Shown here piece after piece: positions 8,959 through 43,037 of a stretch of DNA of 64,000 nt. Position 1 is the stretch's first letter; every line of letters starts with the position of its first letter. Source of the stretch: Paenibacillus hamazuiensis. Lineage in GTDB: Bacteria; Bacillota; Bacilli; Paenibacillales; NBRC-103111. The position numbers and the translations under genes were made by a program. The notes beneath the pieces are model-generated. The model was not told the DNA's origin. It saw only the letters and a list, made by a program, of their open reading frames with translations, and searched no databases. Where the stretch lies: the NCBI RefSeq assembly GCF_023276405.1, contig NZ_JALRMO010000001.1, positions 6,383,001-6,447,000 of the forward strand, read 5' to 3'.

Positions 8959-9110
8959 TAAAACATCTCCTTTCATCCCTAACCCCTGTCTCAATGTTAA
9001 CCTGCTTCGCAAGAGCTATGTTGCGATTTTCGGTCGAACCACGTTCGAGCTAAGACCATGTGTGTGTATCCGACATCTGGGCAAACCGAACGGTCTTGAT
9101 TCTGCCGCTT

Positions 9111-10814: not shown

Positions 10815-10952
10815 CTTTCGGAACTCCTGCGATCATAATTGCTGTACCACAATGATAAGTTATGTATCGAGCGGCTTTCAATACGGTTTGCTTGTAAACA
10901 AAAATGAAAGAAGGAGCAAGCAAATCGCTCCTTCTCCCGTTCCCCTATGTCT

Positions 10953-11441: not shown

Positions 11442-11754
11442 TCTGCCCCTCCTCGCTGATATTTCTCAAAATACGAGAATCCTTGTTCGTATTGTTGTTG
11501 TATTATAAGCACATCAGCACTCAAGCATAATTGAGCGAAGTGAGCACAATATTTTTAGGCTTATCCCTTTTCCCGATTTCCCTGCCCTTTCAATACGGTT
11601 GCCTTCATAACGGGATGAAAAATAAAAAGGACATCTCTCCGTTTCAATGGATTCGATGTCCTCGTTTCGCATTGCAATAGCAGGGGATTGGAAGTAGGAT
11701 TCGGCGGGAGAACGACAGAAAGAGCAGTGAATATGACGAAGTTGAAGTTTATTC

Positions 11755-11920
11755 AGGAGTTATCCACACAGAATGCTGTGAATTTTGTGGATAATATCCC
11801 CGTTATCCCTGACCTTAATTAAAACGGCACAATTACACGAATATATTTAAAATTTTACAAATATAAATCCGCTGATTATAATGATTACTTAACCCGCAAA
11901 AAATTTAACGAAGGGCGGAA
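11755..11920. other. Possible replication origin: two perfect DnaA boxes plus AT-rich stretch
   Basis: TTATCCACA at 11760-11768 and its inverse TGTGGATAA at 11786-11794 are both perfect consensus DnaA boxes 17 bp apart, with a CACAG/CTGTG hairpin between them. The following ~90 bp are strongly AT-rich, as expected for an unwinding element. The region lies in a 675-bp gap without genes upstream of the XRE and initiator-like genes. An origin is inference from motifs and context. Confidence 0.5.
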
Positions 11921-12017
11921 CATAATGCAAATGGAAGTGTTTGCGAAACATTCACATTAAACAATCCATTCCGAATACAATGAGACGTGATATACAGTCA
12001 CCCCTTCTTGACCCCTT

Positions 12018-12042
12018 GCCCTTGTCGCATAGGGCTTTTTTA
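12018..12042 (+). terminator. Plus-strand intrinsic terminator without an upstream gene
   Basis: A GCCCT...AGGGC stem is followed by seven T on the plus strand. No plus-strand gene precedes it in 11442-12017, so it may end a short untranslated RNA from the origin-like region, or be a boundary element for the plus-strand genes that follow. Confidence 0.5.
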
Positions 12043-12117
12043 TTTCGACGAATAGGTCTTGGAAATAATGGGTAAATTGTAAGCTGGTAATTTTTCCAAT
12101 ATAGGAGGAACATTAAA

Positions 12118-12252
12118 TTGTCAAAGCAAATGATTCTAAATTATGAGTACAAGCCAAAACAGCCGGAGCTGTGCAAAAATTGCATATGGGGCTGTTGGGA
12201 TGGGATGAAACAGTATTGTCCCAAGCTTACATGCATTAAGAAATCCCTGTAA
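12118..12252 (+). CDS. Small four-cysteine protein, 44 aa
   Basis: A TTG start lies at normal distance behind TAGGAGGAA. The product has paired cysteines (CKNCIWGCW and YCPKLTC), a pattern that could bind zinc. It is the first of three small plus-strand genes behind the origin-like region. The family is not recognised, and the call rests on the strong ribosome binding site and the intact frame. Confidence 0.55.
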   Translation: MSKQMILNYEYKPKQPELCKNCIWGCWDGMKQYCPKLTCIKKSL

Positions 12253-12374
12253 GCATCCCTGTAAGCCCAAAACGCTGAAAAAATGGGTTTACGCCGTGCT
12301 TCCCTTGTGTCAATGCACATAGGCTGTTGCTGTGATTCAATATCACGCCATATACAAACTTCAGGAGGAATGAT

Positions 12375-12575
12375 ATGAACAATTTCACTTTTTATGCAAT
12401 GCCCACCTACACCCGCGACCATGACGCTTATTGCAAACAAATGTATGATTGGCACATGAAAATGCAACATTACCGTGAGCAACAAAGAGCGTATCACCTT
12501 GAGCAAGCAAGGCATTTTCAGAAGCTTACAGGTGAAAAAGCTAATGTCTCACCCGACAACACTGGCGTTGCCTGA
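12375..12575 (+). CDS. Small hypothetical protein, 66 aa
   Basis: ATG behind AGGAGGAATGAT. The product is rich in aromatic residues, His and Gln (for example MYDWHMKMQHYREQQRAYH), probably a single long helix. It follows the 44-aa gene in the same direction and overlaps the next small frame. No family recognised. Confidence 0.6.
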   Translation: MNNFTFYAMPTYTRDHDAYCKQMYDWHMKMQHYREQQRAYHLEQARHFQKLTGEKANVSPDNTGVA

Positions 12576-12666
12576 ACTGGAACATTTAACATGGAGCGAA
12601 GTCCTGAACAAGCACCAGCGGAAACGATTTGCAACGATATTTGTAAGAACTTTGAAAGGGGTGTGA
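12544..12666 (+). CDS. Small hypothetical protein, 40 aa
   Basis: The ATG at 12544 has an AGGTGA site located inside the end of the preceding gene and overlaps it by 32 bp, suggesting coupled translation. The product is basic at the C-terminus (KHQRKRFATIFVRTLKGV). The overlap leaves some doubt that it is expressed. Two GC-rich stems without long T-runs follow at 12691-12712 and 12784-12801. Confidence 0.4.
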   Translation: MSHPTTLALPELEHLTWSEVLNKHQRKRFATIFVRTLKGV

Positions 12667-12885
12667 TAAGCCGAATACAAAAATGAACCTCCCCGTAGCG
12701 AGCGGCGGGGTATCAAAAGGCATTTACTCAAAAAAACTTATACGCTACACGAAGCGAAGAATTAGATCCGCTAAGATAAATAAGGCGGGGAGAAATCCCC
12801 GCTTCACCTAATACGTTTTCAATCCCATGTCGCAATGTAAATTCCCTCGACAAGCATGGATGATAGGTTTTCTTGCCGTTCCGAT

Positions 12886-13212
12886 TCATTTAGAAAGGCC
12901 AGGTAAAGGTTTACTTCGTGTCATTTGCTCTTGATGATAAAGCTCAATACAATCCAGAATACGCTCGAATCCTTGGCGACACGGCTCGTTCGAGTATGCC
13001 TCCTCATGTAAATGCTCGACCAAATCGGCATCTTTTATCGTATACAGCATATCGATATACTCCAGTTCAACCTGCCTAAGCCGAATTTCGAAATATTTTG
13101 CAAGCCCCAAACTCATGCCAAATGCCATCGCTTTCCTCCACTCACCCTCTTCAACGGCGACATTTCCAGCCATCTCCCCTGTTAAACTTACTCCGCTTCT
13201 TTCAGCAGTCAT
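12886..13212 (-). CDS. Hypothetical protein, 108 aa
   Basis: ATG behind GGGAGG. Soluble, helical and acidic; the middle (YFEIRLRQVELEYIDMLYTI) looks like a long helix. No family recognised. It stands alone between the small plus-strand genes and a ~390-bp stretch (13213-13602) in which I see only a degenerate region. Confidence 0.6.
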   Translation of the reverse strand: MTAERSGVSLTGEMAGNVAVEEGEWRKAMAFGMSLGLAKYFEIRLRQVELEYIDMLYTIKDADLVEHLHEEAYSNEPCRQGFERILDCIELYHQEQMTRSKPLPGLSK

Positions 13213-13602
13213 TTACATTTGCCTCCCTTTCTGCACCAAATCTCCAATCCCCTATAATGTTCTCTTGTGAACATGATTGAAAAAATGAAAAACACTCAGT
13301 CATTTTGACCGAGCGTTCGAAAAAACCAGCTATACAGTTACGGGATTGATTAATAATTAATGGAAACATATTGTTCGACTCCTGATTGGTATCGTACAAA
13401 TATCATACCGACCAATGCACAAGTTCGTCAACAAAAAGCGTATTTTGTTACATTCTAAACGATATAAGAGTTGGGGATGAAAGAAAGGGGGAAACGCTAA
13501 CTCTTATAGCCACCAATTTAATTGATTTTGCTTGCGTTCACAGATGCCAAGAAACCTTATTTTGTGCGGATTCCGAGCCAATTGTTTCTTAGGTTGTCCC
13601 GT

Positions 13603-13803
13603 TCATGCATGTACATTGCTTGTATACTGTTCACAAAGCAACTTAATTGACTTAATGACTTCGCCGCTACTCTTGCCCCGATTTATCGTATCACCGACGA
13701 TTACAAACAGGTCTGTCTTGCTCAAAGTTCACTTCTGCATGCTTTAGCAGTAATTTGAATCCCTGATTTTCACCATGGATTCCGGTAATAAAAACTTTCT
13801 CAT
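13603..13803 (-). pseudogene. Calcineurin-like metallophosphoesterase remnant
   Basis: The ATG at 13803 has a GGGAGG site, but a shift occurs within the first codons and another after the first third. Reading across the shifts gives KVFITGIHGENQGFKLLLK then LFVIVGDTINRGKSSGEVIK, which follow the phosphoesterase motifs D-x-HG and GDxxxRG. The catalytic Asp of the first motif is Ile here. The frame ends at 13603, far short of a complete enzyme. It is a decayed, truncated gene. Confidence 0.65.
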
Positions 13804-13857
13804 TACTCCCTCCCAGCAAATCCGCCGCGATACTGATGTCTAACCAGAACCTTTTCC

Positions 13858-14739
13858 TTAGTCATTTCCATAATCATAATCGTAATCTGGTTCCTCTTCG
13901 ACAGTCTTTGAAAAAACAGGATCATCTATTACAATTTCCACTTCTTCATAACCAATTAATTTCAAATCACAGTATCTGCAATGAACTTCTGTAGCGTCAT
14001 AAAAATAAGTATATACAGAATGCCAAGGATTATCTTCGCTTTCTCCCTCATACTTTTTGTCATTAAATTCCCCGTATGCTATAGCATCATTATTACATGC
14101 TGGACAAGGTATCAATTCCTCGTTATCATCTACGTCATAAATAATATGAGGGCGGTCAAATTTATACTTTTCTCTATACATAATTCTGCAAGCTTCCACC
14201 CTTGATTCAACAACAGTTTTAAGAGTAGCCGAATGATCAGCAATAATTTTCAAAGCTCGTATTGCTTCATCACGTCCTATCCACTCTTCTAATTTTTTTC
14301 CTTGAAACTCAAGCAGAGTCACACAGATTTCCCAAAATGGAGGGAGAATTAAATCTAATTTAAGTCCATCAAACGGTAACAATCCAGAGTGCAGTTCTGC
14401 ATTTCTTTTGTTTGCCAGCGACATACAGAAATCTTTTTTCTTTTGATCGAATTTGGGAATTGACAGATGTACTTGCAATCGTTCGAAAACCGTTTTGGCT
14501 TGTATAGTTTTGAAATCGTCATGATTTTTGTAACCACAGGCGACCAATAATCCTTTGGGGTCGTTTGGATCTACTACTAATGATGGATGAACAAATGCCA
14601 GTGTTGCTTTACCTAAGAGTTCTAAAGATAAACTGGCCCATAACAAAAATTCTGACATGTCGGAATCATTTCTCTTTGAAATTCCTTTATTAATAAAAAG
14701 CTTGGATTTGTTGTATAGATCCAAATATTCAAGTCCCAT
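13858..14739 (-). CDS. HEPN-motif protein with C-terminal zinc-ribbon-like region
   Basis: 293 aa. A helical N-terminal part carries R112-N-x-x-x-H117 (RNAELH), the R-x4-H signature of HEPN domains, several of which are RNases. The C-terminal third has two Cys pairs (CPAC and CRYC) about 45 residues apart and an acidic tail ending in a D/Y repeat. The start lies 2 bp after the stop of the 15407-14742 dioxygenase gene, with AAGGAGAG overlapping that stop, so the two form a tight operon. A single R-x4-H can occur by chance, so the HEPN call is moderate; no activity is demonstrated by sequence alone. Confidence 0.6.
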   Translation of the reverse strand: MGLEYLDLYNKSKLFINKGISKRNDSDMSEFLLWASLSLELLGKATLAFVHPSLVVDPNDPKGLLVACGYKNHDDFKTIQAKTVFERLQVHLSIPKFDQKKKDFCMSLANKRNAELHSGLLPFDGLKLDLILPPFWEICVTLLEFQGKKLEEWIGRDEAIRALKIIADHSATLKTVVESRVEACRIMYREKYKFDRPHIIYDVDDNEELIPCPACNNDAIAYGEFNDKKYEGESEDNPWHSVYTYFYDATEVHCRYCDLKLIGYEEVEIVIDDPVFSKTVEEEPDYDYDYGND

Positions 14740-14741
14740 AA

Positions 14742-15407
14742 CTATCTCTCCTTTATCGATACTCTGAGAAGTAATCTGTCGTTATCTATCATATTACTTT
14801 TTCCTCTTCCATGTAAAAATCTCCAATTATCCAAGATCAAAAGATCTCCGAAGTTCCATTTCACTTCATAGAGATCTCTTGGACAAATTAAATTATCGAT
14901 TTTAGTTAATAGTTCCGTTCCCTCTGATGATGTTGCTTTCATGCAATCTCTATCTAATCTAAAATAGTATTTACGTTGATGGCAATTATATATGGTTGTT
15001 AAAAAACTATACCTTCCATTAATAACCTTAAATAGCACATTAGCTAATCCAAATCGAAGCTCTCTATCGTTATTGAAAAGATTTTTGGTATCATAAAGAT
15101 ATGTCGGTCTATCTCCGGAACCTGGGTTTAATGAATATAACAATATATATCTTACAGGTACTTTAAAGTAAGCAGTATCAGTATGCAGAGGAAAGCTATT
15201 TAGCCCGTGATTTCTACTCAGCGAATTTTTATGTGCATCTTCCTTTTCTTTAGGAGAGAGGCGATCAATAACCTTCGCCCCCGACCTTGTTCCAACAGGT
15301 ATACCAATTTGTTTAGATATAGCTATTAGCTCTTCTTCAATCAGGTCAGGAGCATTTAGTTTGATGTAGCCTACTTCTTCAAGTTCTTTAATTGAGATTC
15401 TAACCAT
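14742..15407 (-). CDS. TauD-like Fe(II)/2-oxoglutarate-dependent dioxygenase
   Basis: 221 aa, shorter than typical TauD (about 280). The metal-binding H-x-D is H75-T-D77 in FPLHTDTAYF; the distal His lies in RFLHGRG near residue 199 and the 2-oxoglutarate-binding Arg in RLLLRVSI near 215. Such enzymes hydroxylate small molecules or modified substrates using Fe(II) and 2-oxoglutarate. The substrate cannot be told from sequence. It is the first gene of a two-gene operon with the HEPN-motif protein. Confidence 0.75.
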   Translation of the reverse strand: MVRISIKELEEVGYIKLNAPDLIEEELIAISKQIGIPVGTRSGAKVIDRLSPKEKEDAHKNSLSRNHGLNSFPLHTDTAYFKVPVRYILLYSLNPGSGDRPTYLYDTKNLFNNDRELRFGLANVLFKVINGRYSFLTTIYNCHQRKYYFRLDRDCMKATSSEGTELLTKIDNLICPRDLYEVKWNFGDLLILDNWRFLHGRGKSNMIDNDRLLLRVSIKER

Positions 15408-15532
15408 AGCCGCACCCCAACACCAATTCGTTAAATCAACACATATCGCACTGCATGGGATAGTGCTGATTGTAGATAAAAATTAATCGAGAAGTTACAG
15501 CGTTCACCAGATACTAACATCATATACAAAAA

Positions 15533-15556
15533 AAGAAGGTTAGGAAACCCTAACCC
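15533..15556 (-). terminator. Intrinsic terminator of the 15565 gene
   Basis: A GTTAGGG/CCTAAC stem followed by a T-rich run on the minus strand lies just past the stop codon of the 15565 gene. Confidence 0.7.
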
Positions 15557-15564
15557 CCGACCGT

Positions 15565-16173
15565 TTATTTCTTGTTTACCGTAACCCAATTGCCATCACC
15601 ATATTCAAAATTAATAGTATATCCATTCCCTTCCATATACTCTTGGAGGGCTTGTTCCCATTTTACTCCATTGACTTGAAAATTGACGTCCTTGAGGTTG
15701 ACCGTGACGGAGTTGTAGTAGTATTCCTCGGCTTTCACAACTTCGTCGGCAAGAAAATACAATACCAACGATACAAAATTCTCATGTCTGTCTACCCACG
15801 TTCTCCTCTCCGTCTTTTTCTCTCCAATTTGAAATCTCAATTTGATTGCTTCAATTGCCAAAATGCTGTTTCTTTCATCCAGCGAGCGAAACAAGTAGCA
15901 AACTGAACATTCCGCACATGCCGCGTTATAAAGGTTGAATGCCAATTCGATGAGACTGCGAGTGCCGCTTGTAAGCCATGGCTCGTTGAATACTTCCAGC
16001 CGAATAGAGTTTTCTTCAAAATCGTAGATCGACTCTACGTTTTTGTAAAGTGAGTCGTTTCCCGAAAGCACAAAAAACAATGATCGTCTCTCAATGTCGT
16101 TGTCATTAATTCTGGCCCTTTTGCAAAGCTCGGCGAATCTTTCTTCATGCTTGATGTTCAAAAACTGATACAT
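15565..16173 (-). CDS. Conserved hypothetical protein, resembles DUF6075
   Basis: 202 aa from the ATG at 16173, which has AAGGAGG at 7 nt; the longer frame has none. The text MYQFLNIKHEERFAELCKRA and the later SLFFVLSGNDSLYKNVESIY remind me of the Bacillales family DUF6075; I name it from memory and have not checked. It has its own terminator, so it is probably a single-gene unit. Function unknown. Confidence 0.65.
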   Translation of the reverse strand: MYQFLNIKHEERFAELCKRARINDNDIERRSLFFVLSGNDSLYKNVESIYDFEENSIRLEVFNEPWLTSGTRSLIELAFNLYNAACAECSVCYLFRSLDERNSILAIEAIKLRFQIGEKKTERRTWVDRHENFVSLVLYFLADEVVKAEEYYYNSVTVNLKDVNFQVNGVKWEQALQEYMEGNGYTINFEYGDGNWVTVNKK

Positions 16174-16278
16174 ATTGAAGTACCTCCTTATTTTCGTTTT
16201 TATCTTATATGCATGCTTGTTCCATACATGCACTTTAAGGCAAAGACAGGTGTTGATCTGTACATAATCAGTCGATTT

Positions 16279-16428
16279 TTACTGTTTGAGATCTTTGACT
16301 GTCATTTTCTTTAGATTGTTTGCCCTGCCCCTTCGTTCGCCGTTTGTCTTTTGGTTTTTTGGCAATTGCGAATTCACTGGTTGATTTTGCAATGGCGGAG
16401 CTGACATGGCAGGTGGTGAATTAGGCAA
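16279..16428 (-). CDS. Possible small basic protein, 49 aa
   Basis: A TTG start has GGGGGGAG upstream. The product is proline- and glutamine-rich at first (LPNSPPAMSAPPLQNQ), then strongly basic (NGERRGRANNLKKMTVK). The ribosome binding site lies in the 3' arm of a long hairpin (16437..16491). No family recognised; it could be chance. Confidence 0.4.
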   Translation of the reverse strand: MPNSPPAMSAPPLQNQPVNSQLPKNQKTNGERRGRANNLKKMTVKDLKQ

Positions 16429-16436
16429 ACGGCTCG

Positions 16437-16491
16437 CTCCCCCCCTGTTACCGAAGAGCGTATAGATAATCTCTTCGATAACAGAGGGGAG
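16437..16491 (-). promoter_or_regulatory. Long hairpin that includes a ribosome binding site
   Basis: Arms 16437-16458 and 16471-16491 pair almost perfectly (CTCCCC...CGAAGAG with CTCTTCG...GGGGAG). On the minus strand the 3' arm contains the GGGGGGAG site of the small 16279 frame, so the hairpin would hide it. From 16492 to about 16945 I see no supportable gene. Confidence 0.4.
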
Positions 16492-16962
16492 TTAAATCAC
16501 AACGCATGGCAGTATGGAGCCATCAGGTATCCGTGTCGAATTTAACCCCGAAAGCTTACGCTTTCCATCGCTCGTAGCTTTTTATCACTAACATGTCCAG
16601 GTCTGCTATTACCATGCTGACTACCAATGTCACTCACGATGCCCCCCACATCTCTTTCGAGAAACAGGACAGGTCAATCACCGATATTCTGGAAGTAAAA
16701 ACGCCACCATCTAACGGCCAGTAAACTCGATGGTCAGTCGAGCGGTTGTTTTAATGTGATCTGCCTCAACACAGAGGTTTTTTAGTTTTGCGTCTGAAAT
16801 CTCTTAAACAGACTATTGAGTTTTTTGAAAATTAAAATAAGCCTCCTTTCTGGAGACTTACCAAACTCAACGCCTATTCTCTTTCATCCACTTTTTTATG
16901 TCTCAAGCATTATTAAACCGATTTGGCGATTATATTTTCTGCTCATACCGTATAATATGAAA

Positions 16963-17039
16963 CATAAGGTTTTTCTGTGGAGAAAGAGAGCTTGCTAAAC
17001 ACTAACTTGGCGGTTGGGTGTGATAAGCTCTCTTTTTTT
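16963..17039 (+). ncRNA. Possible small RNA ending in a strong terminator
   Basis: A perfect TATAAT lies at 16951-16956, and the stem AAGAGAGCTT/AAGCTCTCTT followed by seven T ends at 17039. No open frame with a good ribosome binding site lies between, and no plus-strand gene lies close upstream. The -35 region is poor, so the promoter is weakly supported. Confidence 0.3.
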
Positions 17040-17111
17040 AGTTTTTATATCATAGTAAGGATTGGTCGATTTGATAACGTGACAAGACTGTTAGACTCGC
17101 TTAATCAAAAA

Positions 17112-17155
17112 AAGAAAAAGACAGACCCGAATTGTTGGGATCTGCCTTTTTCAAT
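17112..17155. terminator. Bidirectional terminator by the 17162 gene
   Basis: A stem around AGACAGACCC/GGGATCTGCCT is flanked by A-runs on one side and T-runs on the other, so it could stop transcripts from both directions. It lies immediately beyond the stop codon of the 17162 gene. Confidence 0.6.
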
Positions 17156-17161
17156 TTTAGC

Positions 17162-17377
17162 TTACAAGGAAGCTTGTTCTGCTTCGACTTTTACGAAGCG
17201 ATTCAGTTCAATAATGTAGTACCAACCGTGCTTCGCCATGTCCTCTCTGATTTCCGATTCATCGGTTTGTAAATGATCCGCCAAATACTCAAGGATCTGA
17301 AATTCTTCTTTCCGCAATTCGGCGTTTAAAAACTTTGCTCGTTCGTCCGCCGCGAGCCTTTTAAGCTGATGGTACAT
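17162..17377 (-). CDS. Small hypothetical protein, 71 aa, paralogue of the 383 gene
   Basis: The ATG at 17377 has GGGAGG; the upstream extension lacks a site. It has the same length as the product of 383..598 and shares FLNAELR, a middle D-x-x-E-I/L-R/K-E-(D/E) segment and the ELNRFVKVEAEQA-type end. Function unknown. The 17378-17802 gap upstream has no gene; it contains three tandem copies of GGGGATA near 17483-17504. Confidence 0.65.
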   Translation of the reverse strand: MYHQLKRLAADERAKFLNAELRKEEFQILEYLADHLQTDESEIREDMAKHGWYYIIELNRFVKVEAEQASL

Positions 17378-17802
17378 TAATGAACCTCCCTTGGTTTTTA
17401 ATCCTTTTATGCTATGCGGAAAGACAGGGATCATGCGAAATGCAGGGCTTCGTTAATTGAGAGCCAACCACCGTGGAAGTTAGGGGATAGGGGATAGGGG
17501 ATAAGCAGTCTCGTCAATAACGTTTTCTCGGCAACACTATTGGAATTTATTTATTATTATGGTTTCTTTTGATTGAACGCATTACGGTTTTGATATAAAA
17601 TAAGAACAAATGTTTGTGCGAGGAGAGAGAGAGTCTGATATTTTGTCATGAGCAAACGCCTATGATACAGCAGACCATATAATAAAACAGGTTGAGCAAG
17701 GGCGATGTTGAAATCTCTAAATAAAGGAGAATGCCTATCGGTCAAAATCAAAACGGATGTCCTTCAATCGGATTTCATCTTTAAGTTAGGAGGCGTTAAG
17801 CT

Positions 17803-18156
17803 ATGGAGAAACTGATTATGTATAAAAATTACTTTTTCTTCCTTCGCCCAGTGAATCTCGACATGTACGACACGGAATTCGAGATTTATGACTTGGGTGG
17901 CACAAACATCGGAAGTACGGTTTGGGGAATCAAGAATGGAACAAAGCTTTTTTCGTCTGAGACGGAAAAAGACGATTTCATGGAGTGGCTTCAGATAGAA
18001 GCTCATAAGATTGAAGCAATGCTGAAATTTGCCTTGGAATTCAATTGTCCGGTCGAAAATGCCGATCAACTCGATCTTTCAACAGATAAAATCGTCCAGA
18101 TCATGAAGACGAAATGGTCGATTCCGCCGGAAATCATGGATGCGGTATTGCCATAA
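17803..18156 (+). CDS. Hypothetical protein, 117 aa
   Basis: ATG behind TTAGGAGGCG. Soluble alpha/beta protein starting with a short beta-rich segment (NYFFFLRPVNLDMYDTEFEI) and ending in an amphipathic helix region. No family recognised. It stands alone on the plus strand with its own terminator. Confidence 0.65.
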   Translation: MEKLIMYKNYFFFLRPVNLDMYDTEFEIYDLGGTNIGSTVWGIKNGTKLFSSETEKDDFMEWLQIEAHKIEAMLKFALEFNCPVENADQLDLSTDKIVQIMKTKWSIPPEIMDAVLP

Positions 18157-28012: not shown

Positions 28013-28203
28013 CGAAAAGTCTCCTCCTGTTTGCAAGATGACACGTCTATGTATTCTCTTGTTTGACGACGATGCAACTGGTTTTGCATCGCGATTAGGT
28101 TTGACCAATATTCGATAGGCTCGTGATGAACATGAATTTCCAATAAACTTGTTATAACCTCGTTAATGAGCCAACGATCTGCATCATTTAATGAAGATTT
28201 CAT
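28009..28203 (-). CDS. Small hypothetical protein, 64 aa
   Basis: ATG at 28203 behind GGGTGATC. The frame overlaps the end of the preceding 28184 gene by 20 bp and its stop overlaps the start of the SLH gene, a chain of coupled genes. Helical, His-rich middle (LLEIHVHHEPIEYW). Family unknown. Confidence 0.55.
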   Translation of the reverse strand: MKSSLNDADRWLINEVITSLLEIHVHHEPIEYWSNLIAMQNQLHRRQTREYIDVSSCKQEETFR

Positions 28204-28636
28204 TTTGATCACCCATGGATTGTATAAGCTTATCGACCATTTCCTCAATCCTCCCCGTTCGCTTATGCCACTGAAACAGAAAGCTGTTTAAGTCTTTGTT
28301 GAACTCCTTGATTGCATGACCCTCAACCCTGTTGTTGATCATCTCTTCGCTAATACTGAGCAAATCAATCAACTCTTGTTTTGCTGGCTTCTTGTTCGTA
28401 TCGTGAAACAAAGCGGAAATCACTGTATCTACAATTCCCCCAATCCCAAACTCCTTTCGTCTCTCGAAATAGTGATGAAAGGTTTCTCTATCCTGAAGTA
28501 AGTACATTGCAACGAATCGCCTTGCCTGATGATGGTTATCGACCATTGCAATGATATCTTCGATTAATTGATCCGGAAATAGATGGTTTTGCAATTCCTG
28601 CAAATAGCCCACAAAGAATTTCTGGTCGAATTCCAC
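28184..28636 (-). CDS. Hypothetical helical protein, 150 aa
   Basis: GTG start behind AGGTGG, 3 bp after the stop of the 28640 gene. All-helical, with HDTNKKPAKQELIDLLSIS in the middle. Not recognised. Part of the chain 28640-28184-28009-26126. Confidence 0.6.
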   Translation of the reverse strand: MEFDQKFFVGYLQELQNHLFPDQLIEDIIAMVDNHHQARRFVAMYLLQDRETFHHYFERRKEFGIGGIVDTVISALFHDTNKKPAKQELIDLLSISEEMINNRVEGHAIKEFNKDLNSFLFQWHKRTGRIEEMVDKLIQSMGDQNEIFIK

Positions 28637-28639
28637 TGT

Positions 28640-29026
28640 TTAAGCCACCTCATGAATAATGAATCTCTCCAATGGTTCAGCATCAATCTTTTGCAAAGAC
28701 AACACTCCGAGAATCAGTTCAAGAACGAATTTTAGTGTCACGATCCATGTTCTGCCTTTACGATAATACCAGTTATCGCTTTCTTTCATGTTGTCTGCGA
28801 TTAATACATACCTGTAGTTTAGCCCCGATTCCTGCTTGTAGGCTTGAAAAGTCTCGACAACGAAATGGGAATATGGCATTTTGGTCAATATTTCTTTGAC
28901 CCGTTCGTTCTCGCACCAGATTTCAAGTTTTTTCGATTTTTGACCGAGGATTTGGAACGAAATCAAACGATTATCAATCAATATTTCGCGTTTTCGCAGA
29001 AACAATCGATTGAACAACGCTGGCAA
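28640..29026 (-). CDS. Hypothetical protein, 128 aa
   Basis: TTG start at 29026 with AAGGAGGT at the right spacing; an upstream in-frame TTG would place that site inside the gene. Mixed alpha/beta protein with a hydrophobic helix near the end (LKFVLELILGVLSL). Not recognised; first gene of the operon leading to the large SLH protein. Confidence 0.55.
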   Translation of the reverse strand: MPALFNRLFLRKREILIDNRLISFQILGQKSKKLEIWCENERVKEILTKMPYSHFVVETFQAYKQESGLNYRYVLIADNMKESDNWYYRKGRTWIVTLKFVLELILGVLSLQKIDAEPLERFIIHEVA

Positions 29027-29122
29027 TGTCGGCACCTCCTTCGCATCCAACTATCTACTCGATCGCAACAAAAATTATTGAACAAGGTAGCTCTTTTTCA
29101 ACATCATTCCAGCCCCCTCAGT

Positions 29123-35189: not shown

Positions 35190-35381
35190 GTGCGACCATC
35201 GAAGATGGTCGAAAAGGTTTTTGCGTCTCGCAGAGACGTTTGCCGCGTCGATGCGGCAACATGCTTTTGCGGCTCGTAGAGACGCTTGACCATCGGCAGA
35301 TGGTCAACAATGCTTTTGCGTTTCGGCAGAAACGCTTGACCCATCGCGAGATGGGGCAACATGGTTTTCCCCGATGAGGGG
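35190..35381. repeat. Array of at least seven short hairpins with GNA/GNNA loops
   Basis: On the plus strand: GACCATC-GAA-GATGGTC (35194-35210), CGTCTC-GCA-GAGACG (35224-35238), TTGCCGC/GCGGCAA (35240-35259), GCGxCTC-GTA-GAGxCGC (35269-35285), TTGACCATC-GGCA-GATGGTCAA (35286-35307), GCGTTTC-GGCA-GAAACGC (35318-35335), CCCATC-GCGA-GATGGG (35340-35355), and a CCCC/GGGG stem. They alternate in a ~50-bp unit joined by AACATGCTTTT-like spacers. Stems change in both arms together between units. No supportable gene lies here. Confidence 0.8.
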
Positions 35382-35531
35382 CGAGCAAAACGGGCTTCGT
35401 TTCGTAGCGAGTGCCGTAGGCCGAGCGGTCGGCGACAGCCGAACGCAACGAAGCAACGGAGGTTCTTACCGAGCCAATTTTCCGCAGGAAAGAGGCGAGG
35501 TTAGAACCCTCCCCGTTTTGCGAAGCCCCTC
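35376..35531. other. Branched, highly structured non-coding region
   Basis: Positions 35376-35394 pair with 35512-35531 almost completely (GAGGGGC..GCAAAACGGG with CCCGTTTTGC..GCCCCTC). Inside lie a second stem GCTTCGTTT/AACGAAGC (35394-35402 / 35447-35454) and a third GGAGGTTCT/AGAACCCTCC (35458-35466 / 35503-35512), the latter enclosing TTTCC-GCA-GGAAA. The whole forms a three-way junction. It could be a structured RNA or a folded single-stranded DNA site. Strand and function are unknown. Confidence 0.6.
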
Positions 35532-35595
35532 TTCTCGCTATTGATATCGTAGATAGACCAAGGCGGTAATATAACTGCTCCTGAATTTTGCCAAC

Positions 35596-35687
35596 AAAAA
35601 AGGCTCCACGCACAAGGCGTAGGAGCCTCTTCCCGCTTGCGGGAAGCAAAAACGCCAGGTCGGGGGATGATACCGAGCTGGCGTTTT
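35596..35687 (-). terminator. Three consecutive stem-loops after the 35698 gene, two terminator-like
   Basis: Read on the minus strand: AACGCCAG...CTGGCGTT then TTTT (35648-35687); CTTCCCGC/GCGGGAAG (35629-35646); and GGCTCC-TACGC...GCGT-GGAGCC followed by TTTTTT (35596-35628). The first and last look like intrinsic terminators, so the hairpin region further on is probably separated from the 35698 transcript. Confidence 0.65.
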
Positions 35688-36063: not shown

Positions 36064-37413
36064 TTAAATATCAACATGATAATCATGTCCGTCTTTTACC
36101 TTAGCCAAGAGCTTAACAGCTTCGTGCGAATATTTATTCATTTCGGACTTGTTAGTCTTTATGGTTACGTGATACTTATTGTCTGAAGCTTTGATATTAA
36201 TACCTTTCTCCAATTTGATTTGATTAATCAGTTTGTCTGCCCCGTGCCATCTCGGATAGCCAAGTTGTTCTCCAACTTGCGTTAGTGTGAACGGATATTG
36301 AATGTTAATATGGCTCGGTTTGTCCAACAATGCAACTCCGTACAAGTTAGGCAGACCCTCATCTTCATGCAAAACCTTCTCTATCATTTCAAAGTTCACA
36401 TCAACGCTTCTTCTCGGAATGTCACTCCGCACAAGCTTATATGTCCGAGCTAATAAAGCCCTCAGTAACTTGGGATGCACATTATCAACGGCTTTGTTAG
36501 CTGAAAAGGTTTCTAATATCCAATCAAAACTGTTGCTTTCAATGTATTTAACACGAATTTCTTTACCATTGACGACAAATACCTTTTCCTTTGGCGGGTT
36601 GGAATTCTCCGTAAGGTTTTTGTTGTAAGCTAAAAAATAAATGTTGGGAATAAGTTCGCCTTCGTTAGAAATAATCTCATCGATATCAGATAAGATCGAG
36701 AGGATATTTTTGTCATTCCCGCTATATCCAATGAATAGCAGAGGGTGTTCCGCAAAGAATGTCAGCAACTTCGCACTAAGATATTTTTTCTTGTTTATAA
36801 ACACTTCATAATCTTCATTGTTAAAGACCAACTCACGGTAATCTGTAATACAACCATGAATTTTGAATATTTCACCGATTGCCATCGTGTCAGGTTTCAA
36901 TACCTGCTGACCAATGACTGGTTGATAATCTGGAAATATCTTTTCGAGAAGAGTATCATAATTGGTCGTAATAATGGCATGAGGCTGAATATTTCTAAGT
37001 AGCCTAATCTCCTTTTGATACTCAACATTCTCGATTTCATCTACACTGCCAGGTGTAATTTCCTCAAATAATTTTTTTATTTGATATTTGATATACGATG
37101 ATTTTGGCACTCTTGAATCAAATAATTCAGAAGGAAACTGTTGCTTGTTAGCCCAGGCCCATTCCCGATATGAATTTGTATATTCTGTCCCAATATCCTC
37201 TAATCTAAATCCATCCTGAAGATAAAATCCCACTTCATTTTTAATCAACGGGCATCGCCTTTGTAGTTCCTCTAATAAGCCGATCCAACTTGGTCCATTA
37301 AAAAATCTTTGCGACAAGCCTGAACCAACAAATAAAATAGGCTGTGTTCCCATTTCATTGAGACAGTCCTTAATGTCTGCACTCACATCAGAGATATAGT
37401 TCATATACTCCAT
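36064..37413 (-). CDS. SIR2-domain protein, probable defence NADase
   Basis: 449 aa; ATG behind GGGAGG. SIR2 signatures: ILFVGSGLS (residues 26-34), HAIITTNYDTLLEKIF with the catalytic-type Asn, EIFKIHG with the His, and HPLLFIGYSGND. The last ~140 residues include a winged-helix-like part (FTLTQVGEQLGYPRWHGADK). SIR2 domains in stand-alone phage-defence proteins deplete NAD+ after infection; here it adjoins a type III restriction-modification pair, which supports defence. The trigger and exact system are unknown. Confidence 0.75.
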   Translation of the reverse strand: MEYMNYISDVSADIKDCLNEMGTQPILFVGSGLSQRFFNGPSWIGLLEELQRRCPLIKNEVGFYLQDGFRLEDIGTEYTNSYREWAWANKQQFPSELFDSRVPKSSYIKYQIKKLFEEITPGSVDEIENVEYQKEIRLLRNIQPHAIITTNYDTLLEKIFPDYQPVIGQQVLKPDTMAIGEIFKIHGCITDYRELVFNNEDYEVFINKKKYLSAKLLTFFAEHPLLFIGYSGNDKNILSILSDIDEIISNEGELIPNIYFLAYNKNLTENSNPPKEKVFVVNGKEIRVKYIESNSFDWILETFSANKAVDNVHPKLLRALLARTYKLVRSDIPRRSVDVNFEMIEKVLHEDEGLPNLYGVALLDKPSHINIQYPFTLTQVGEQLGYPRWHGADKLINQIKLEKGINIKASDNKYHVTIKTNKSEMNKYSHEAVKLLAKVKDGHDYHVDI

Positions 37414-37456
37414 GCTTTCACCCCTCCCTTAACAACTTCTCATAAAGGGGAGTCAT

Positions 37457-37505
37457 GGAGGAATTTGAGAGCGAAGAAAGAGGATCTTTGCTCTCAAATT
37501 CCTCC
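37457..37505. repeat. Perfect 16-bp hairpin upstream of the SIR2 gene
   Basis: Arms 37457-37472 and 37490-37505 (GGAGGAATTTGAGAGC and complement) with a 17-nt loop, in the 318-bp gap between the SIR2 start and the end of res. There is no T-run, so it is not a typical terminator; it could be a regulator site or an mRNA leader structure. Nothing else is seen in the gap. Confidence 0.55.
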
Positions 37506-37701
37506 ACCTCCTTGCCCCGCTTGAGTTTAGTCCGAGTGATCTAAGAGTAATATTCGAGAGCAACCCTGCAATTTCCTGCCCGTGGAAGATAGGGATGCAT
37601 GAGAAAAAGTCGAATAAATGTCGGGAAATATTCTCGTATCAACCTTCAATACTCATAAAAGTACACATAATTCTTTACTTGACCTTGGAGATATAAAAAT
37701 A

Positions 37702-37720
37702 AGTCCCCATTTGGGGGACT
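37702..37720 (-). terminator. Intrinsic terminator of the mod-res operon
   Basis: AGTCCCC/GGGGACT stem with a T-rich tail on the minus strand, 12 bp beyond the res stop codon. Confidence 0.75.
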
Positions 37721-37731
37721 CAAAAAATATG

Positions 37732-40368
37732 TTACTTTACAAAGTCTCTTAACCCGTTTACATTATCTTTCGTTGCCCAGTAGAATAAACATTTGCCATT
37801 ACTTCTCGCGGCCCACAGCTCTCCTACAGCCTTTTTTTCCAATTCTTCTGGACCATCCTTAATGTGATCTCCCTTGTACTCGATAACGACAATCCGACCA
37901 TCATTAAGTTCAGCAACAAAGTCTGGATAGAAACGCCCCTTTGACTTTTGTAACCAAAAACTATATTTACTATCGCTGTCAATGTTTCTTATCCAATGTT
38001 TGACCTCTGGTAATTGGTCGATGAGTAAGGCACATTCATACTCTTCACCACTACTCTTTAACTCTCCTACAAGTTCGTGGTAGTGCTTATTAAATTTGAT
38101 TCGCCCATCGTAATACCAGCTTGCAGGGTAAATTTCCTTATCAAACGTGAAGCAGTACCTATCTTCATCACTGACCAGAACTACGTCTTCCCCAAGGTCT
38201 AAACAAGCCTGCCACGCCTCTTTACGAGCCGTTTCCCTATGTCGTCCAATTAGCTTTTCTATTGCCTCGCGTAATTTGTACTTATAGTGGACAAGCGTGC
38301 TTAACTCAAATTCCCTCTCGTCGATAAGGTGCTGGATAACTTTGTAAATAAACAATGTGGACTGCTTCATTGTTATGTCGGGGTGAGGGATTTTGCGGTC
38401 AAGCCAATTTGTTAGTTCAGCAATTGTCCAACCACGGTCTTCAATATCAAGAGACAACTGCTCAACTAATTCTTCAACAAACTTAGCCTCTACTCGGCCT
38501 TGTTCCGAAACTGTTACCTCACCAATTTGTCCCTGCACATTCGATTTTGTGGAGAACTCTCCCTCACTTAACTTAGGGTCGTATTTTGAAAGTTCGAAAG
38601 CCCTCTCAAGATAAATGGACTCTTCAAATAGCTTTAAAAGATCACCTTGTTTATACAACAGATAGGGAACCTTAAAATCCCCTTTTTCCTTCGGCATTTC
38701 CGGCTCAGGTGGTGGATTAAACAAATCAAATTTCGGAATTTGCTGAGCTTGTGAAAAGAGGCTATCGACTGCCTTCTTCCCTTCATCGGTCTTAAAGGCC
38801 TTCTTAAATTCAATTTTTTCATCCTCAGACATAGTTCCTCGATATACAATCTTTTTTGCCTCCGGATTATAAGTCACTTTTTTCTTTATTGGTTCTGGTA
38901 GTTCTTCCAAATTGGGTTCTTCTTCAACCTCTTCCTCAGACTCATAGAATTCAGGGTCAAACAAGTCTGGTTCAGGAGTTGGAGGAGCAATCAAGGTTTC
39001 AGCCTCAAACCGTTCAAACCCGTTTTCTACCAACGCATCAGTAAGTGACGTTAAGGTGTTCTCAAACCTTGTCGAAGAAACGTATGCGTAAGCACGATTA
39101 AGTTCTGGATCATTCTTTTTCTTTGCATACGGTAATCGAAGTACACGACCCACTAATTGCTCGACAGCGGTTGAGGAACCAATTTCAGCTACGGAACAAA
39201 GTACATAAGCAAAAGAACAGTCCCAACCTTCTTTTAAAGCAGAAACAGTAATGATAAATTTGATTTTGCAGTCCTGTGCAAAGAGATTAACACCTTCAAG
39301 TTCTTTTGTGTCTCCCGTTGCAATGGCAATCTCTTCTCTTGGAATCTTAAAGTCTTCCATCAATGCCTGTAGAATAACGCCTACATTGATTGTCTCTCTC
39401 GTTTGAGAACGGGGTTGTGCTTGAAGCAATACTATTGGGCGGATATATTCTCCGGTTTCTCTTCGTTCCTTGTTAGCAATAACTTGAAGTCTTTTTCTTC
39501 TCCCAAGTGCTTGAGCAATAACATCCTTCCAATCTGCTTTTGTTTCGAGACGGATTGGAAGTTTTATCATTTCCTCTGCATTTAGCTCTGCCGCAGAAAT
39601 ACTACACAAGACGTTACTTGCAAACTCTCCTCTTTCGGGTCGATGGGTAGTCTGTGGAGTAGCTGTGAACTCGATGATTGAAGATGGACTAAATCGGGCA
39701 AGAGTCTCAAAAGAAAGGTTTGTCCTTGCATTGTGAGCCTCGTCGATAATTACCATTGGACGTCTTGACTTTAGAACATTCGCCAAAGAATAACAGATTC
39801 GACTACCTTCATCTGTTTTCTCAAGCGAGGATAATACAGATTCGTTTAATCCATCAAATAAGACTTTCAAATGCCCGTTATCATCATAAATTTTTCTACC
39901 ATCCGTATCCTCGATTCGGAGAGCGGCTAAAGTAGATACGATAATGAGTGTTTCGTTGTCCAACGTACTCCGCTGAACAAATAAAGCCTCTGTAATGTCT
40001 AAAACTGTTACAGGTGTGTCAATTGTCTCTTCAATGGCTTTACGGTATGGGTGTTCTACGTCTCTTAAAGCCGCTAATGTTTGATCTTTAATCGGAGTTG
40101 TAGGAACCAGCCAAAGCACAACAGCGTTGTCCTTGTGCAGAAAATCCCGCATCGTGATACTGATGCTATGCGATGATAGAAGTGTTTTGCCTCCGCCAGT
40201 AGGGACTCTCAAGCAAACATAAGGAAGTCCAGGAAGTTGTGGGATTGTGCAATAAGGACGGTTCACCTGTTGTTCAAAAGCCGCACTTGCTCCAAGTGCT
40301 CTTACCGCCTTGAAGTAATTGGATAGTGAACGTAAAACTCTTTTTTGATAATTCTTTAACGACAACAT
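37732..40368 (-). CDS. res: Type III restriction enzyme, Res subunit
   Basis: 878 aa. Superfamily 2 helicase motifs: RVPTGGGKT (I), VIIDEAHNA (II, DEAH), EFTATPQT (III), EGWDCSFAYV (V), EQLVGRVLRLP (VI). The C-terminal nuclease carries FYPDFVAELNDGRIVVIEYKG, a PD-(D/E)xK site with all residues present. Res translocates on DNA with ATP and cuts DNA that lacks Mod methylation. The start lies one base after the mod stop (TAGAATG), so it is coupled to mod. Length is normal and no inactivating changes are seen. Confidence 0.92.
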   Translation of the reverse strand: MLSLKNYQKRVLRSLSNYFKAVRALGASAAFEQQVNRPYCTIPQLPGLPYVCLRVPTGGGKTLLSSHSISITMRDFLHKDNAVVLWLVPTTPIKDQTLAALRDVEHPYRKAIEETIDTPVTVLDITEALFVQRSTLDNETLIIVSTLAALRIEDTDGRKIYDDNGHLKVLFDGLNESVLSSLEKTDEGSRICYSLANVLKSRRPMVIIDEAHNARTNLSFETLARFSPSSIIEFTATPQTTHRPERGEFASNVLCSISAAELNAEEMIKLPIRLETKADWKDVIAQALGRRKRLQVIANKERRETGEYIRPIVLLQAQPRSQTRETINVGVILQALMEDFKIPREEIAIATGDTKELEGVNLFAQDCKIKFIITVSALKEGWDCSFAYVLCSVAEIGSSTAVEQLVGRVLRLPYAKKKNDPELNRAYAYVSSTRFENTLTSLTDALVENGFERFEAETLIAPPTPEPDLFDPEFYESEEEVEEEPNLEELPEPIKKKVTYNPEAKKIVYRGTMSEDEKIEFKKAFKTDEGKKAVDSLFSQAQQIPKFDLFNPPPEPEMPKEKGDFKVPYLLYKQGDLLKLFEESIYLERAFELSKYDPKLSEGEFSTKSNVQGQIGEVTVSEQGRVEAKFVEELVEQLSLDIEDRGWTIAELTNWLDRKIPHPDITMKQSTLFIYKVIQHLIDEREFELSTLVHYKYKLREAIEKLIGRHRETARKEAWQACLDLGEDVVLVSDEDRYCFTFDKEIYPASWYYDGRIKFNKHYHELVGELKSSGEEYECALLIDQLPEVKHWIRNIDSDSKYSFWLQKSKGRFYPDFVAELNDGRIVVIEYKGDHIKDGPEELEKKAVGELWAARSNGKCLFYWATKDNVNGLRDFVK

Positions 40369-40369
40369 T

Positions 40370-42058
40370 CTACTTCACCTTTATTTCGTATGGAATTTGT
40401 TTAAAGATGATTCCATGCTCTTCAAGATATAGGGAACTCACCTTACAGCCGTTCGCAAATATCACCCTTATCCTGCCATCAAATTCTGGAAGGCTTTCTA
40501 CAATCTCTTGGGTAAGATAAGTATCATCGCCACCCTCATTAAAGTAAAGATAGTATAAATTACCTTTACCCGAACCTATGTAATTAGCTTGATTACCTGT
40601 AATGTCCCCTAATGGCTCACCTGTTTCAGTAAAGAACACATGCCTCGCCAGATCTTGATAGGTTACATTCTCCTTTATCAATCCAAAAGCATCAAACAAG
40701 CTATCACCTAATTCGCAGAAGGTAAACCCCGAACCGCCTTCCCAACCAAACTCTTCTGTTACCCCGGTATTATCCTCACCATTCGCAACACTTGTGAGTC
40801 GTTTTAACGTATGAGTATACGCATGGTCTCCCAATTCTACGGTAATAAAACGACGTTTCATTTTTAGTGCCACCGCCGCTGTGGTTCCGCTTCCTCCAAA
40901 GGAGTCAACTACAATATCTCCCTCTTCGGAAAAATGCTTGAGAAGAATCGCAAGAAGTTTTTCAGGCTTTTTACCACTATTAAATTCAACTCCACCCTCG
41001 TGTCGGCAGTTACCAAAGTCACCAGCCATATCGTAGAAGTTTGGAATTGGAGTTTCAGTAATTACTTCTCCTTCTCCACCTTCCCCATCTTCTATTTTGT
41101 CAACAGGTACGCCTTGGTAGTATTTACCTTTCGTTGCATTTGCTCTTTTCGGCCCTGTAAAGTAGCGATAATTTAGTGCATCATCGCCAATATCATAAAC
41201 TTTATACATTACTCCTAAGCCGTCTTCATCCTTACGGCCAGCTAAATAATCTCTAAAAAATCTGCCAGACGAATTGCCATTCAGAATTGTACCAGTAGCC
41301 CATATTTCCTTTAAGCCATTCACGGAAGGTTCTCCTTGCGTGATTTCGTATTCTTCGGGATTGAAAACCACTACCTTTTTGTCGCCTAACGTTATCTCTC
41401 GACCTGGCCCTTTTTCACGGATATAGAACTTAAATTTATCGTAATTGTATTCTTGTTCTTTTAGTCTTGGCTTTGCCTTTGGTGAACGCCGATAAACCAA
41501 TATTTGCTCTATCTGTTTGTGAAAGCTCATGTCTTGTGTCAAGGTCTTTTCTGAATAACGAACTTGGACATAAATGGTAGTCAAATAATTGGATGGGAGG
41601 AATATTTCGTCCATTATGGCCTTTAAATTTGCGGCTTCATTGTCATCAATCTGAACACAAATAAACCCATCTTCCCTTAGTAGTTTCTTTAATAGTTGAA
41701 GACGGGGATACATCATGCATAACCATTTATCATGACGAGATAGATCTTCCATGTCCTTACCTACAACCTTATTGAGCCATTCACGTATCTCAGGATCGTC
41801 CACTTGGTCGTTGTAGATCCAGAGCTGATTATCCCCACCAGTATTATAAGGAGGATCTATATAAACGAACTTACACTTACCTGCATAATGAGGTAACAGA
41901 GCTTTAATAGCGTACAGATTATCTCCATGTATTAGCATGTTGCCGTTACTTGCTTCAGGACGAACCGATTTTTCCATATCAGCGTTAAGCAGGCGGTAGT
42001 GGATCTCGTTGTGATGATTAACGATAGCTTTCTTACCGATCCAGTCTAAATGTGGCAT
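40370..42058 (-). CDS. mod: Type III DNA methyltransferase, Mod subunit
   Basis: 562 aa; ATG behind GGAAGGTG. Adenine-N6 methyltransferase of the beta class: motif IV DPPY in FVYIDPPYNTGGDNQ near residue 75, followed much later by motif I, VVDSFGGSGTTAAVALKM near residue 390. The variable region between them holds target recognition. Mod methylates one strand of an asymmetric site and guides Res. First gene of the mod-res operon, nearest the glmS-side end of the island. Confidence 0.92.
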   Translation of the reverse strand: MPHLDWIGKKAIVNHHNEIHYRLLNADMEKSVRPEASNGNMLIHGDNLYAIKALLPHYAGKCKFVYIDPPYNTGGDNQLWIYNDQVDDPEIREWLNKVVGKDMEDLSRHDKWLCMMYPRLQLLKKLLREDGFICVQIDDNEAANLKAIMDEIFLPSNYLTTIYVQVRYSEKTLTQDMSFHKQIEQILVYRRSPKAKPRLKEQEYNYDKFKFYIREKGPGREITLGDKKVVVFNPEEYEITQGEPSVNGLKEIWATGTILNGNSSGRFFRDYLAGRKDEDGLGVMYKVYDIGDDALNYRYFTGPKRANATKGKYYQGVPVDKIEDGEGGEGEVITETPIPNFYDMAGDFGNCRHEGGVEFNSGKKPEKLLAILLKHFSEEGDIVVDSFGGSGTTAAVALKMKRRFITVELGDHAYTHTLKRLTSVANGEDNTGVTEEFGWEGGSGFTFCELGDSLFDAFGLIKENVTYQDLARHVFFTETGEPLGDITGNQANYIGSGKGNLYYLYFNEGGDDTYLTQEIVESLPEFDGRIRVIFANGCKVSSLYLEEHGIIFKQIPYEIKVK

Positions 42059-42568: not shown

Positions 42569-43037
42569 TGTAGCCCTAAAAAAAACATTGTCCTCTCATG
42601 TCACCTCTCTCCATCCCCTGCAATCCCTTGCCACGCCTGGGTTTATAGGCAATTTGAGGACGAATCGAGAAAAAGCCTGATGTAAAAAAGGTTGTCCAGA
42701 AAAGCAGGGGAAAAGAAAGGGGAACTTACAGGGATTAGGATGAAACCCGAGCAAATTTGATGTAAAAAAGGTTGACCGAAAATGTAGAGAAAAGATGTGA
42801 GTAAAAAAAGGGATGCTTTCGCTTCCTTCCTTATCTCCAACTGCCGAAAACCACGTCATTCCTGAATTTCTCCAATATTATTATTCGGCGATACCTCTGC
42901 CGTTCCCTGCTTGAAATGCAAAAAAGGATCGGGGAGCTACCGGACAATTTCATCCAGCATTCCCCAATCCTTGGACAATCCTTTTTACATCAAGACAATG
43001 CTTTTTACATCAGGACAAAGTTTTTTTCATGGTGACA
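42569..43037. mobile_element. Pair of inverted Tn7-like ends enclosing 469 bp, at attTn7 behind glmS
   Basis: The right end reads inward from 43037 on the minus strand as TGTCACCATG, seven A, CTTTGTCCT; the left end reads inward from 42569 on the plus strand as TGTAGCCCT, eight A, CATTGTCCT, identical at 21 of 26 positions. Tandem ~20-bp repeats with TTGTC and TGATGTAAAAAG follow at the right end (42973-42992, 42993-43012, 43013-43032). Spaced copies lie at the left (42678-42697, 42758-42777, 42796-42812). Tight sites at one end and spread sites at the other is the Tn7 arrangement for TnsB binding. The right terminus is 23 bp past the glmS stop. The 5-bp flanks differ (TACGT and AAAGT). No gene lies inside. 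Confidence 0.65.

Follow-up and report, generated by a model that had tools for sequence, protein, structure and literature searches.

Sites that function as folded single-stranded DNA are rare. They are also difficult to spot, since both RNA tools and sequence motifs overlook or mislabel them. A window of 64,000 nucleotides from Paenibacillus hamazuiensis, the whole stretch of DNA analysed here, contains an array of compact hairpins ahead of a two-gene operon encoding proteins P1 and P2. An initial annotation proposed two explanations, a recognition site formed by folded single-stranded DNA and a structured RNA acting with the two genes, which raises the question of which nucleic acid folds, on which strand, and for what purpose.

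Architecture of the module

Read on the P1-P2 strand, the module consists of a promoter-like site, a three-way junction, a paired mini-hairpin array, P1, and P2. The array of the window comprises seven hairpins at 35193–35359, whose loops on the + strand are GAA (35193–35211), GCA (35224–35238), the single six-base loop GTCGAT (35240–35259), GTA (35269–35285, stem GCGGCTC/GAGACGC with one G·A mismatch), GGCA (35286–35307), GGCA (35318–35335), and GCGA (35336–35359). All stems and loops listed by the initial annotation were thereby recovered on the + strand. An eighth hairpin, CCCC-GATGA-GGGG at 35369–35381, has bases in common with the closing stem of the three-way junction. The unit of the array is a repeated hairpin pair, with type A TTGCCCATC...GATGGGCAA and type B GCGTCTC...GAGACGCAAAAGCATG, and the number of copies beside the junction ranges from 1 to about 3.5: one in L009, L010, L012, L025, and L036, about two in L031, and at least three in the window and in L017.

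The three-way junction occupies 35375–35535 and was folded in silico on both strands, the + strand being taken as the functional one on account of its GNA loops. Its closing stem, estimated earlier at about 19 bp, has 17 bp broken by a 3x2 internal loop (GAGGGGC/GCCCCTC, then GCAAAACGGG/CCCGTTTTGC), close to that claim. The arms contain hairpin P3b with a 3-bp stem and a GTA loop (GCC-GTA-GGC, 35413–35421), hairpin P3a (TCGGC...GCCGA, 35429–35442), and the tip of arm P2 (TTTCC-GCA-GGAAA, 35478–35491), all on the + strand. Folding of both strands as DNA and as RNA gave four structures beyond chance, with z values of -7.9 (+ strand) and -7.6 (- strand) for DNA and -6.8 (+ strand) and -5.4 (- strand) for RNA, and 0 of 100 dinucleotide shuffles were as stable in each case.

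The initial annotation had allowed that the stretch might prove to be coding. The distance from the junction to P1 varied from 94 to 243 nt over 15 listed regions without three-base steps, and P1 has its own Shine-Dalgarno site downstream of the hairpin stretch, at about 35155–35144 in the window, so the stretch does not look coding.

Upstream of the junction on the - strand, a GTTATA box resembling a -35 element (35570–35575) and a TACGAT box resembling a -10 element (35546–35551; TATAAT in most relatives) are separated by 18 bases. The motif GTTATA-N17/18-TA(T/C)NAT was present in 15 of 17 upstream regions, including that of L026, whose P1 is about 37% identical. The -35-like box in these 15 regions is GTTATA rather than TTGACA, which may reflect a special regulator. 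Further upstream, also on the - strand, lies a terminator-like hairpin followed by a T-run (35602–35627; motif in 12 of 17 upstream regions), which could shield the module from transcription arriving upstream. It is preceded by another hairpin, CTTCCCGC/GCGGGAAG (35629–35646), and similar ones were seen by eye in several homologues.

Folded DNA rather than folded RNA

The junction alignment contained 14 sequences out of 17 non-duplicate upstream regions, and the row of the window begins 4 bases late. L032, L033, L037, and L035 were excluded as duplicates (from the genomes of L017, L014, L025, and L010, respectively), L020 as a decayed copy with a broken P1 and a partly deleted junction, and L026 and L038 for a divergence too high for alignment; a few P1 relatives known only as fragments were outside the set. 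Changes on both sides with pairing kept were found in 29 of 48 junction pairs against 18.2 in shuffles, and standard pairs filled 95.8% of the cells against 78.9%. The covariation score was 0.484, compared with 0.160 in shuffles and at most 0.076 in slid versions of the alignment. The number of further pair types, 46, was not above shuffles, 165 of 500 of which reached it. The covariation among homologues fits the earlier suggestion that the structure is under selection, and the matching changes first pointed out inside the array are borne out between species by the junction.

The kind of base pair through which these changes pass separates folded DNA from folded RNA. Drifting RNA helices pass through G·U pairs, and an A·C cell corresponds to a G·U pair on the opposite strand. 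The junction alignment contained 635 Watson-Crick, 6 G·U (0.9%), and 9 A·C cells, which is not the G·U tolerance expected of a structured non-coding RNA. Both controls were RNAs from related genomes: glmS gave 825 Watson-Crick, 137 G·U, and 6 A·C cells, and RNase P gave 1362, 126, and 9, so that G·U accounted for 8–14% of their cells. Fisher tests of the G·U to A·C ratio separated the junction from the two controls (p 1.5e-7 and 2e-6 for glmS and RNase P). Since the RNase P matches sit below the Rfam cut-off (14 of 25 used), the weight rests on glmS, for which 27 of 30 genomes were used, every one above the cut-off. With one representative per 85%-identity cluster (n = 8), the junction still had 5 G·U, 5 A·C, and 362 Watson-Crick cells. 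In addition, the array stems showed 12 interior mismatches and no G·T among them. Repair of imperfect palindromes by template switching might contribute to a pattern of this kind, yet it needs DNA hairpins too. In line with this reasoning, the available text of one study describes GU pairs as favoured in non-coding RNAs and in most RNA viruses tested, and GT pairs in single-stranded DNA viruses as not favoured after allowing for recombination (PMC6993869).

Compensatory changes without wobble pairs thus indicate folded DNA, and the conclusion that pairing is maintained at the DNA level, with a DNA strand rather than an RNA folding, is well supported by the alignment. Rfam gave no match in the module at the gathering cut-off, and a permissive search returned only chance-level results (E 0.34 or worse). 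Of the two explanations first offered, the site folded in single-stranded DNA gained from the scarcity of wobble pairs and from the C(GNA)G loops lying largely on one strand, and the same data disfavour the structured RNA.

The loops further suggested which strand folds. Among 62 distinct hairpins from 17 regions, G..A loops occurred on the + strand of the window in 29, on the other strand in 1, and on neither in 32 (binomial p 6e-8, relatedness ignored). Three-base loops numbered 28, of which 17 were GNA and 15 of these were closed by C-G. The tip of junction arm P2 carried a GNA loop in 13 of 14 sequences and P3b in 12 of 14, the two exceptions being AGC and AAA; the P3b stem itself varies, mainly among GCC/GGC, CCC/GGG, and GTC/GAC, and is imperfect in L012. 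No GNA-type rule was detected for the P3a loop in the 14 sequences. DNA mini-hairpins that combine a GNA or GNNA loop with two or more G-C pairs are described as exceptionally stable and nuclease-resistant, and the GCGAAGC mini-hairpin, likewise nuclease-resistant, as melting near 78 °C (PMC4686876, available text). Given the loop bias, the functional single strand is probably the + strand of the window, the template of P1-P2.

The P1 and P2 proteins

P1 (34532–35134, - strand, 200 aa) was modelled with a pLDDT of 91.9 as a winged helix plus a small alpha/beta domain, the latter Replic_Relax-like, and P2 (33354–34514, - strand, 386 aa; pLDDT 77.9) as a winged helix followed by an alpha/beta C-terminal domain to which no fold was assigned. 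Neither protein of the window gave a usable match in Pfam, NCBIfam, PADLOC, or PHROG. The winged helix of P1 aligned with a MarR protein in VIA-align (Z 8.1, rmsd 2.0, 68 residues), and PDB fold searches matched it to AspA (Z 7.1) and TubR (Z 6.9) and the winged helix of P2 to TubR (Z 9.3), with matches up to Z 10.1. No PD-(D/E)XK nuclease was noticed among the PDB matches listed, which were mostly winged-helix proteins and barely covered the C-terminal domains.

The Replic_Relax-like character that the initial annotation assigned to the gene holds at the profile level and not in Pfam. When compared by hhalign with 13 Replic_Relax proteins of the same order, P1 gave a probability of 85 and an E value of 6.2e-6 over 153 columns, a homology that spans the winged helix-turn-helix and the nuclease-like domain. 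P1 did not match PF13814 (Replic_Relax) at the curated cut-off, and the best relative, the P1 of L056, scored E 0.055 with 14 bits, below the cut-off of 25.3. The distant P1s of L038 and L056 also weakly matched a phage 'replication initiation protein' family (E 0.009 and 0.011). Invariant residues over ten P1s include H95, E117, D156, E170, and K184, and the Replic_Relax set conserves H98, D132, E151, D153, and K166. In a manual alignment, for C-terminal folds barely covered by PDB searches, D156, E170, and K184 of P1 correspond to D132, E151, and K166, and the second acid of the E-x-D motif, the equivalent of D153, is replaced in P1. Profile comparison of P2 revealed no usable relationship, with a probability of 2.4 for Replic_Relax and 0.4 for P1.

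Replic_Relax is listed as the MobC relaxase family in streptococcal IMEs in the available part of PMC5357655, and MOBC relaxases are described as related to PD-(D/E)XK restriction enzymes in that of PMC12857230. Because P1 misses the Pfam cut-off and lacks one motif residue, it should not be filed as a MOBC member; we propose that it works like one.

Relatives of P1 and linkage to the junction

With a limit of E 0.001, and counting weak and partial matches, P1 relatives turned up in 6 of 104 genomes at family level, 17 of 392 at order level, and 10 of 398 at class level, and a broader P1 profile matched 2 of 398 genomes across the phylum, one being the window's own and the other weak; there is overlap among the four genome sets, and the genome of the window is counted in them. 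Nine P1 loci lay in named genome contigs, from Gordonibacillus, Paenibacillus, Brevibacillus, and one Neobacillus. A P2-family ORF (family F1) accompanied P1 in 16 of 18 regions and was absent from L052, where P1 is broken, and from L054.

The search for homologues suggested by the initial annotation, run with a model of the junction, matched 14 of 392 genomes of the order, all within the 17 that carry P1, where 13 of the 14 matches are the sequences that built the model and one match is a decayed copy. Each genome had a single match, adjoining P1, and no junction without P1 was found in the 392 genomes, where, among the matches listed, seven candidates per genome were fully scored, so that weak ones could be lost. 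The upstream layout, array included, is kept in relatives. L052 (G158, 9748–10263) is a decayed copy in which P1 is broken and the junction largely deleted, and the array hairpins persist.

Relatives with divergent P1s (L038, L056, and L053) have other upstream sequences that are still strongly folded (z -6.4, -6.05, and -6.0), and the upstream region of the remotest relative, L054, is not structured (z -1.2). The L054 locus (G318, 9839–18107) belongs to a conjugative-type element, with a coupling protein of the VirD4 type and an Alp7A-like actin encoded nearby. The upstream DNA of all 13 ordinary Replic_Relax genes analysed lacked comparable structure (z -2.4 to 2.7), and five P1 loci folded in the same manner gave z -4.6 to -10.4, so the folded site is a property of the P1 branch.

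Searches of viral contigs and of 50,697 phage and 72,556 plasmid records returned no P1 relative at the limits used, and neither the P1 of L056 nor the P2 of the window found a relative in the 72,556 plasmid records at those limits. This absence from plasmid and phage records is odd for a mobilization module.

Integrative elements around the module

The module often lies within integrative elements. L041 (7576–12280) and L043 (7663–12360) have in common a block of about 4.7 kb, which starts in the last bases of rlmD/rumA and contains a large serine recombinase, an ORF of 75–78 aa, the folded DNA, P1, P2, and, after P2 on the opposite strand, a small ORF of 95–110 aa. The module and the serine recombinase make up nearly the whole block, the ends of which, set by the comparison of L041 with L043, should be taken as approximate. 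A copy of the rlmD/rumA 3' end lies within the block, and the upstream homology of L043 to L041 is confined to the last ~60 bp of the gene. L044 has the same gene order. The block it has in common with L041 extends to about 6.7 kb, includes a 438-aa ORF, and lacks the small ORF. In L055, an excisionase-like gene lies 0.6 kb and a tyrosine integrase 0.9 kb from the module, measured from P1, and genes that we take to encode RNase R and SmpB are close by.

An integrase or recombinase of its own, as sought in an IME, accompanied the module in 9 of 18 regions (ORF families F2 or F7, each typed by Pfam through a single member), and the window has Tn7-like genes. The module was also considered as an independent transposon and rejected, there being no end after P2 common to the 16 loci compared; DNA downstream of P2 was held in common only within two groups of close relatives. 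A coupling protein was recognised only near L054, and a phmmer search with that protein, which can miss other types, found none else among 462 ORFs of the window and the 18 regions.

The module of the window appears to sit in a Tn7-like island of about 48 kb at glmS. Genes for TnsD/TniQ, TnsC, TnsB, and TnsA, identified by Pfam, lie at 695–7132 on the - strand, and a repeat search found five TnsB-site-like repeats beside glmS at 42678–43032, the presumed island end. Four of the five recur about 48 kb away (G000:C1:6377706–6378040) with the same sequence and spacing, and both sets contain repeats in both orientations. This arrangement suggests that Tn7-like elements lie in tandem downstream of glmS and that the inner element bears tnsABCD, the hairpin module, and defence genes.

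Several other genes of the window were recorded. A SIR2-domain protein close to the candidate defence family PDC-S25 lies beside a type III restriction-modification pair (36064–42058), and a protein of the 23S rRNA intervening-sequence family (8554–9012) lies beside the Tn7-like genes. Small proteins with relatives near the module in other hosts are encoded at 28184–28636 (family F5, function not assigned) and, as judged by eye, at 15565–16233 (one relative is DUF6075) and 17162–17434, and another small protein without assigned function at 28640–29050.

Proposed function and alternatives

With slightly better than even confidence, we read the module as a cis-acting site of folded single-stranded DNA, similar to an oriT, that is bound by P1 and P2 and belongs to integrative islands. 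The + strand, which is the template of P1-P2, would fold into the three-way junction flanked by pairs of GNA/GNNA mini-hairpins, and transcription of P1-P2 would probably start at the promoter-like site that immediately precedes the junction. P1 and P2 are predicted to bind the folded structure through their winged helices, either recognising the folded + strand when the element is single-stranded or extruding the fold by unwinding. They could then start or finish strand transfer at the fold, possibly by nicking, as the MOBC relaxosome does at oriT. The site would be the transfer origin, or a closely related strand-processing origin, of islands that have their own integrase, whether a serine recombinase, a tyrosine integrase, or a Tn7-like system. 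The resemblance of P1 to MOBC relaxases, in its winged helix and restriction-enzyme-like domain, makes an origin of transfer the most likely role. The main points against it are the lack of relatives in the plasmid and phage records searched and of a recognised coupling protein, the latter sought with a single query.

The evidence for DNA folding, from wobble counts and loop bias alike, would equally suit a folded single-stranded site with another job, such as a priming or strand-conversion origin or a means of protecting or marking the single-stranded element, with P1 and P2 as replication or establishment factors. Nuclease-resistant mini-hairpins (PMC4686876, in the part available) and the weak matches of the L038 and L056 P1s to the phage replication initiation family agree with such a role, but the best profile relation of P1 is the relaxase-type Replic_Relax, and a scan of the recombinase, the 78-aa ORF, and the P1 and P2 families of the 4.7-kb block revealed no primase or helicase; we regard it as unlikely, though worth keeping in mind.

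Somewhat less probable is a DNA cruciform scaffold, where the winged helices of P1 and P2 would act on duplex palindromes in autoregulation, partition, or island silencing. The winged helices do match repressors and centromere-binding proteins (AspA, TubR), and the array sits between promoter and gene; however, the stems vary freely with pairing kept, so that sequence is not what is read, and a loop bias towards one strand is unexpected for a duplex. It is doubtful, more so than the cruciform, that P1 and P2 are an anti-phage or toxin-like pair carried as defence or addiction cargo with the hairpins as sensor or decoy: the SIR2 (PDC-S25) and type III restriction genes nearby, and type I restriction genes in relatives by reading of ORFs, would fit, but PADLOC matched neither P1 nor P2, and a recombinase or integrase is found in 9 of 18 regions, whereas the neighbouring defence-type genes vary. 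Transcription of P1-P2 would place the fold in the 5' leader, so an RNA role may exist, yet a structured leader RNA regulating the operon is very improbable, because a promoter-like site directly before the junction in 15 of 17 regions and a leader strand that is stable as RNA too (z -5.4) are set against G·U in 0.9% of cells instead of the 8–14% of RNase P and glmS, no Rfam family, and favoured loops that read UNC on the RNA strand.

If P1 and P2 read the fold, the module would be a compact, testable system for the single-stranded phase of integrative islands. Simple counts, namely compensatory changes without wobble and stable loops on one strand, separate folded DNA from RNA and suggest the strand, and the same counts could reveal other folded-DNA sites in genomes. 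More tentatively, and with less than even confidence, the module may represent a new class of signal, in which a natural array of exceptionally stable GNA/GNNA single-stranded DNA mini-hairpins and a DNA three-way junction are read by a dedicated pair of proteins, P1 and P2, distinct from the known relaxases and replication initiators, in the service of the single-stranded phase of islands. Among the matches listed for open-licence literature, there was no description of the module, of P1 or P2, or of a natural GNA mini-hairpin array.

Comparison with known systems

One close parallel is that of MOBC relaxases and their oriT (pAD1 TraX, CloDF13 MobC; PF13814). In pAD1, TraX begins with a winged helix, and the protein binds five direct repeats ~70–120 bp from the nick (PMC12857230, available text). 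P1 likewise combines a winged helix with a restriction-enzyme-like domain, the latter by profile only, its gene lies beside a repeat-array site, and occurrence in IMEs, candidate ones in the case of P1, is common to both. Unlike MOBC members, P1 falls under the Pfam cut-off and lacks the second E-x-D acid, and it is followed by a second protein, P2, in 16 of 18 regions; ordinary Replic_Relax genes differ in turn by lacking a comparable upstream structure (13 of 13, z at least -2.4).

Integron attC sites are also recognised as folded single-stranded DNA with a strong strand preference (PMC6393395, available text), a likeness in both respects. Here, however, a three-way junction with mini-hairpins replaces one long hairpin, and one junction per genome stands beside P1-P2 rather than in cassette arrays. 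An identity with attC was rejected: several sites between cassettes and an IntI-type integrase would be expected, and one junction per genome was found, in 14 of 392 genomes.

IMEs of Firmicutes are known to include serine recombinases at rumA as well as MobC relaxases (PMC5704250, available text), and the 4.7-kb block has that layout, except that P1-P2 match no relaxase family at the cut-off and mobilization is a prediction here. Finally, mini-hairpins of the d(GCGAAGC) type belong to the same class of GNA/GNNA loops with a C-G closing pair (PMC4686876); in the available text of that source they are engineered DNA, whereas here they form a natural conserved array.
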